A model generated the notes under the pieces. That model had not been told where the DNA came from. It searched no databases and worked only from the letters and a program-made list of their open reading frames with translations. From NCBI RefSeq assembly GCF_041146795.1, contig NC_135174.1:24142878-24206877 (forward strand): DNA of 64,000 bases, read 5' to 3'. Below, in pieces: positions 52,629 to 53,795 of the stretch. Origin of the DNA: Maylandia zebra. Its lineage: Eukaryota; Chordata; Actinopteri; Cichliformes; Cichlidae. Positions within the stretch are counted from its first letter, which is position 1. Every line of letters starts with the position of its first letter. A program made the translations under genes and the position numbers.

Positions 52629-53795
52629 TTACAAGAAGCAAACAGGGCCAACTTGGACGCCAAATTCCTGATCAGGAGCACCAACATCCATAGGAGCAAT
52701 GTCAATGATGGGCAGGCGGGATGTTTTTGATGTCTTGTAGTCAATGACTGTCTTGCCCCATGTGCCAGTGTGTGACTGTAGAGAGAAACAGAAAGGAGAC
52801 ATTGTAAGAGATTAGTTTCTCTTTTCTTATACTTGGATCCTGTGTAAGTTTAGCCCTGGGGCAAAGAGAGAGCAAACTCACCGTGCAGCCATCCTCGCTG
52901 ACACTGTATGTGAAGCGGCTGTTGCCCTCCGCTCTGATCTCGACGTCGTTGGATCCCTGGAGAAGCAGAGCCTTCTTCAGGTTGCCGGTGGCAGAATCCA
53001 TGTAGGCGATGCTGTTCTTGCAGTGGTATGTAACGTTCTGAGAGGCCTGGTTAGACATCAGGCGCATGAAAGTCATCTGGATGTTGACATCCTCGAGATC
53101 AGCTCCATCGCTGCCATACTGGAACTGCGTGACGGAGAGAATAGAAGCACGCATAGTGTCACAGGCCTAATAGTAAAGCATGAATACTGTCCAGGTTTGT
53201 TCATTTGCTCTGTTTTCTCACCTGGAATCCACCGGTCATGGACTCGCTGAACCAGACGTGCTTCTTCTCTCTGATGTTCTTGCTGAGGTACCAGTTCTTC
53301 ATGGGGATGGTGGACTCGCTGGGGTAGACACAAGTCTCACCAGTCTCCATGTTGCAGTGAACCTTGACGGCATCCAGAGGAGAGCCCTGGTTGGGATCAA
53401 TCCAGTACATGCCTGTAATACAGGGACATCAAAAAAAGAAAGTCTCACGCTGAGCTCACCCTCGTGTTATACTTTATCTAAAGGCTGTGTCAGAGAATTG
53501 ATCTGCGCTCACCGCTCTTCCACTCAGGGTGGCACATCCTCAGATCACGGCACATGCGGGCTGGGCTCTTCTGGGTACCGTCTGGGCTGCGGATCTTCTC
53601 AACCTTCTGTGTCAGGGTCTTAAGGGTGGTGTCAACCTCCATGTCACGATCGCGCATGACATTAGGATCATCAGCGCGGTAGTGGCCACCACGCAGGGGA
53701 TCAGGGGCCTTCTCCTGAACAGGCTGGCTGATGAACTCAATTCCACTGCCGGGAGGTCCAGGAGGTCCAGCAGGTCCGGGAGGTCCAGGAGGTCC
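52629..53795 (-). CDS. col1a1: Collagen C-telopeptide and C-propeptide exons (human 49-52 equivalents)
   Basis: Exon 49 finishes the helix with five GPP/GPA triplets and encodes a telopeptide retaining the cross-link lysine context QEKAPD. It also holds the BMP1 cleavage context HYRA/DDPN. The propeptide follows. Cys1 (RMCRD) and Cys2 (RMCHPEW) are present, Cys3 is replaced (NQGSPLD where NQGC is usual), and Cys4-8 are present (VHC, GETC, TYHC, DGC, GPVCFL). The Ca-binding and folding block IDPNQG, the N-glycan site NVTYHC and the ending DQEFG...VGPVCFL are intact. The stop is TAA at 52629-52631. Confidence 0.95.

Follow-up and report, generated by a model that had tools for sequence, protein, structure and literature searches.

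A collagen gene on the minus strand of a 64,000-nucleotide stretch of the Maylandia zebra genome (assembly GCF_041146795.1, contig NC_135174.1, positions 24,142,878 to 24,206,877; hereafter the window) is most likely col1a1b, encoding the teleost pro-alpha3(I) chain, with a probability of roughly 0.88. The chain lacks the third cysteine of the C-propeptide (Cys3) and would join trimers with alpha1(I) and alpha2(I). The loss of Cys3 and the complementary cysteine code are already known, both as an observation and as a mechanism, and the window adds one genome. The gene is built up as follows (window positions):

53742..64000, minus strand: triple-helix exons of the same gene, 31 Gly-X-Y segments, continuing past the window end
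53513..53795, minus strand: last part of the triple helix, C-telopeptide and first part of the C-propeptide, with Cys1 and Cys2
53222..53412, minus strand: second C-propeptide exon, with Ser instead of Cys3 and with Cys4 and Cys5 retained; COLFI domain (PF01410, E 9.2e-23 over 53222-53410)
53381..53383 (read 53383-53381), minus strand: Ser codon TCT at the Cys3 site
52882..53124, minus strand: third C-propeptide exon, with Cys6 and Cys7
52629..52775, minus strand: final coding exon including the stop, with Cys8; COLFI domain (PF01410, E 1.4e-20 over 52629-52778)

All acceptors of the four C-propeptide exons end in AG and their three donors start with GT. An AG precedes 31/31 of the Gly-X-Y segments, which were listed with a filter that misses proline-poor exons, and a GT follows 30/31, the last one continuing into the telopeptide. 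PF01410 was the sole Pfam family on two of the window exons, both times above the cut-off, and a whole-genome search recovered the stretch of all four C-propeptide exons. Counted from DDPNV, the C-propeptide measures 246 amino acids, has cysteines at positions 41, 47, 73, 81, 152, 197 and 244 and is read without internal stop codon. Position 64 is a Ser, where human COL1A1 has Cys3. The sequence-only reading had reported seven cysteines and a Ser (TCT) for Cys3 in a span, 53222..53795, bounded by the outer ends of the first and second C-propeptide exons; the exon reading confirmed this and placed the codon at 53381-53383. Within the window the gene appears intact; its 5' end lies outside. With 74.8% identity between this domain and the human COL1A1 row, chance similarity is not an issue.

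The Ser rests on one assembly of one individual, and a sequencing or assembly error was considered as an explanation. Zebrafish alpha3(I), however, was published with the same Ser (PMC4753508), which makes an error highly improbable, and the trout chain is also without C3 (PMC6181919). With the same loss carried by both fishes, this explanation was set aside.

The C-propeptide of the window gene shares 78.5% identity with that of a second gene of this genome, on C4. In a tree of five genes of this genome, based on seven helix exons plus the C-propeptide, the two were paired at 99/98. When human COL1A1 was added, the window gene, the C4 gene and COL1A1 formed a fork at 99/99, which groups the window gene with COL1A1 rather than with the other fibrillar chains. 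The C4 copy has all eight cysteines and stands beside a window copy without Cys3, the combination by which an alpha3(I) chain is recognized. This grouping and the eight-cysteine sister on C4 support the proposal, made from the letters of the window, of a candidate alpha3(I) chain. The pair of col1a1 genes likely stems from the teleost duplication. All outside protein sequences in these comparisons were PDB chains, and the gene names other than that of the window gene follow tree position and likeness to known sequences.

Membership of another Cys3-less line, col5a2 for example, was also considered, and both col5a2-like genes of the genome indeed read NQGS as well. Their C-propeptides are only 55.1% and 46.7% identical to that of the window gene, against 78.5% for the C4 col1a1 copy. 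They pair together at 100/99, and at the Cys3 site they have the serine codons AGT and AGC instead of TCT. On identity, tree and codon, a col5a2 origin was rejected as next to impossible.

The cysteine code was compared across the fibrillar genes of the genome. The genome search scores the best candidates only (62 matches listed), so that the gene list may be incomplete; 18 regions were fetched, and the cysteine pattern was tabulated for 13/18. All eight cysteines are present in four of the 13 tabulated genes (C4a col1a1a-like, C5 col2a1a-like, C7 and C9). Cys3 is missing in another four (the window gene, C20, C16 and C22) and Cys2 in five (C21a col1a2-like, C21b, C18, C4b and C6), while loss of both was found in 0/13. 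The four genes without Cys3 sit in the clade of the col1a1, col2a1 and col5a2-like genes, and the other clade loses Cys2 only. The complementary type I set is thus complete in one genome: C4 with both cysteines, C21a without Cys2 and the window gene without Cys3. That the loss of Cys3 mirrors the loss of Cys2 in alpha2, as suggested earlier for this DNA, therefore holds for the col1a2-like gene on C21a.

Of the five loci without Cys2 (L012, L018, L019, L020 and L021), three have Ser at that position, one has Val and one Leu. The propeptides of L022-L025 were cut out and, being divergent domains, left out of the table; on visual reading, both Cys2 and Cys3 are present in L022, L023 and L024, and L025 is without Cys at position 2. 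A motif screen of L026 showed no propeptide exon, at a place where the genome search had scored a weak match.

According to the published rule, Cys2 of one chain bonds Cys3 of the next, and a chain missing either forms no linked homotrimers (PMC6181919). The pairing of Cys2 with Cys3 was seen in homotrimer crystals (literature). A 1:1:1 trimer requires one chain with both cysteines and two others, of which one is missing C2 and the other C3, and human C-propeptides missing C2 or C3 gave monomers alone, with linked homotrimers appearing once the cysteine was restored (PMC6181919). With this ring rule, all 11 distinct rings that the three type I chains can form were enumerated. The alpha1 homotrimer has three interchain bonds and no free cysteine. 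For alpha1-alpha2-alpha3, one order gives two bonds with none free and the other order one bond with two free. The (alpha1)2alpha2 and (alpha1)2alpha3 rings have two bonds and one free cysteine each, the other mixed rings one bond, and the homotrimers of alpha2 or alpha3 no bonds and three free cysteines.

Since alpha3(I) keeps Cys2 and not Cys3, it would give one interchain disulfide, from its own Cys2 to the Cys3 of a neighbour, could accept none and should form no disulfide-linked homotrimers. It would join trimers with alpha1(I), which has both cysteines, and alpha2(I), which has Cys3 only, and in one order of the three chains every interchain cysteine would pair. The pairing put forward in the sequence-only reading, alpha1-Cys2 with alpha2-Cys3 and alpha3-Cys2 with alpha1-Cys3 with none left free, was reproduced by the enumeration for this one order. 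The further claim that the code enforces chain composition and order stood in part. The code rules out linked alpha3 homotrimers, and of the two chain orders it favours one. Enforcement of the 1:1:1 composition was too strong a claim, because alpha1 homotrimers and 2:1 mixes such as (alpha1)2alpha2 are also disulfide-linked under the ring rule; the code alone does not enforce it. By analogy, we infer that alpha3(I) of Maylandia zebra would act like the human chains without C3.

Several points weigh against the assignment to alpha3(I) or against the role given to its missing cysteine. The col1a1 fork is weak (81/60) when the tree uses the C-propeptide alone, and the helix exons of the window gene agree with those of C4 at 62% of X-Y residues (74/120), yet with those of the col2a1-like gene on C5 at 60% (72/120). 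The tree leaves the window gene, the C4 gene and human COL1A1 without inner order, and the loss of Cys3 undated. The trimers and disulfides of Maylandia zebra are predicted from its genes, and the fish domains in the cited part of PMC6181919 are presented as aligned sequences rather than as proteins that were expressed. The branch of the window gene is also longer, 0.19 versus 0.047 for the C4 copy, and the chain recognition region of the zebrafish alpha3 chain is more divergent too (PMC4753508). The last two observations are what would be expected if the loss of Cys3 were a neutral change in a faster-evolving duplicate, with the choice of chains set by non-covalent contacts at the chain recognition sequence and the calcium site, and alpha3 taken along by its partners. 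Against such neutrality, the same loss is reported from zebrafish and trout (PMC6181919) and the frame is intact here, and in human domains a single cysteine switches linked homotrimers (PMC6181919). A neutral loss is considered unlikely, and col1a1b with a functional cysteine code is the preferred reading.

A second loss of Cys3 was found in the C20 gene, which we take, from the tree and from known sequences, to be col2a1b-like. At locus L013 (C20), in the exon from about locus position 2778, this gene has Ser (AGC) at the Cys3 position, in DPNIGS. Its col2a1a-like sister on C5 keeps eight cysteines and, like the C4 sister of the window gene, reads TGC at Cys3. The C20 and C5 genes have 79% of X-Y helix residues in common (95/120), compared with 44-61% for other pairs involving either, and their C-telopeptides are nearly identical. 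In the five-gene tree they pair at 85/87, which is under the starred level; once the human rows are included, the fork opens. Since TCT (window) and AGC (C20) belong to different serine codon families, each one step from TGT or TGC, the losses in the window gene and the C20 gene were probably independent, judged from the codons.

Tentatively, Cys3 may have been lost separately in col1a1b and col2a1b, so that the same change of one residue would have left each duplicate pair with one copy able to form homotrimers and one confined to heterotrimers; we regard this as possible, with the odds somewhat against it. The human COL2A1 product serves types II and XI. If the proposal is true, col2a1b, by the published code, could no longer form disulfide-linked homotrimers of type II and would serve in heterotrimers only, possibly as the alpha3 chain of type XI or as a partner of alpha1(I) in the actinotrichia of the fin. 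Human alpha1(XI) is without C2, and alpha2(XI) and the COL2A1 product have both cysteines (PMC12562938). More than one partner of col2a1b is possible, because in zebrafish col2a1b and col1a1a contribute to the actinotrichia (PMC4753508, PMC13120675). In a limited search of the open-licence literature, supplements excluded, no mention of a Cys3 loss in teleost col2a1b was found. If the same switch also made col2a1b heterotrimer-only, it would become directly testable how chains confined to heterotrimers arise once a gene has been duplicated.

Among the other features of the window, the frame 40117-41577 on the minus strand, 11 kb off the collagen gene, is probably ppp1r9b; its only Pfam match was PDZ_5, under the cut-off. 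In the human genome ppp1r9b adjoins COL1A1. On C4, four weaker matches of the ppp1r9b-like protein lie near 4.23 Mb, at a distance of 1.8 Mb from the col1a1 copy there, and a single match on C21 is 36 kb away from the col1a2-like gene. The paralogous matches on C4 speak for the reading of the collagen gene as col1a1b. A 664-amino-acid open frame at 18399-20393 (plus strand) contains many C2H2 zinc fingers. The open frame at 15616-16308 (plus strand) gives the impression of a LINE reverse transcriptase end; Pfam found no family on this frame or on frame 12785-13570.

The system described here has close published counterparts. In zebrafish alpha3(I), Ser stands in place of Cys63, a change that may bear on stoichiometry, and a figure legend describes the bond pattern as drawn for all possible trimer compositions (Gistelinck 2016, PMC4753508). 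For zebrafish bone, skin and scales, a 1:1:1 ratio was inferred from the amino acid composition, mixtures of trimers being still possible (PMC4753508). Type I collagen of rainbow trout and zebrafish fits a 1:1:1 cysteine code, with the topology discussed (DiChiara 2018, PMC6181919). The sequence-only reading had named Cys3-less chains in species lacking alpha3(I) heterotrimers as counting against it, and in a weak sense such a case exists, since the loss of Cys3 also occurs outside alpha3(I): human type V includes a chain without C3 (PMC6181919), and mammalian col5a2 is named as Cys3-less (PMC8887668).

The zebrafish pro-alpha3(I) chain (col1a1b, PMC4753508) is likewise a col1a1 paralogue in which an interchain Cys is changed to Ser and the intrachain ones are kept. 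It differs in the species and in the residue number, 63 there and 64 here. From the 1:1:1 code of trout and zebrafish (PMC6181919) the set found here shows no difference in kind, and Maylandia zebra is one more fish genome in which the published type I cysteine code is complete. The col5a2 chain of type V, in mammals (PMC8887668) and in the col5a2-like genes of this genome, shares the absence of Cys3 with the window gene. The col5a2-like genes, in contrast, stand on a separate branch of the tree and use the other serine codon family, and for this reason the two losses were probably separate.
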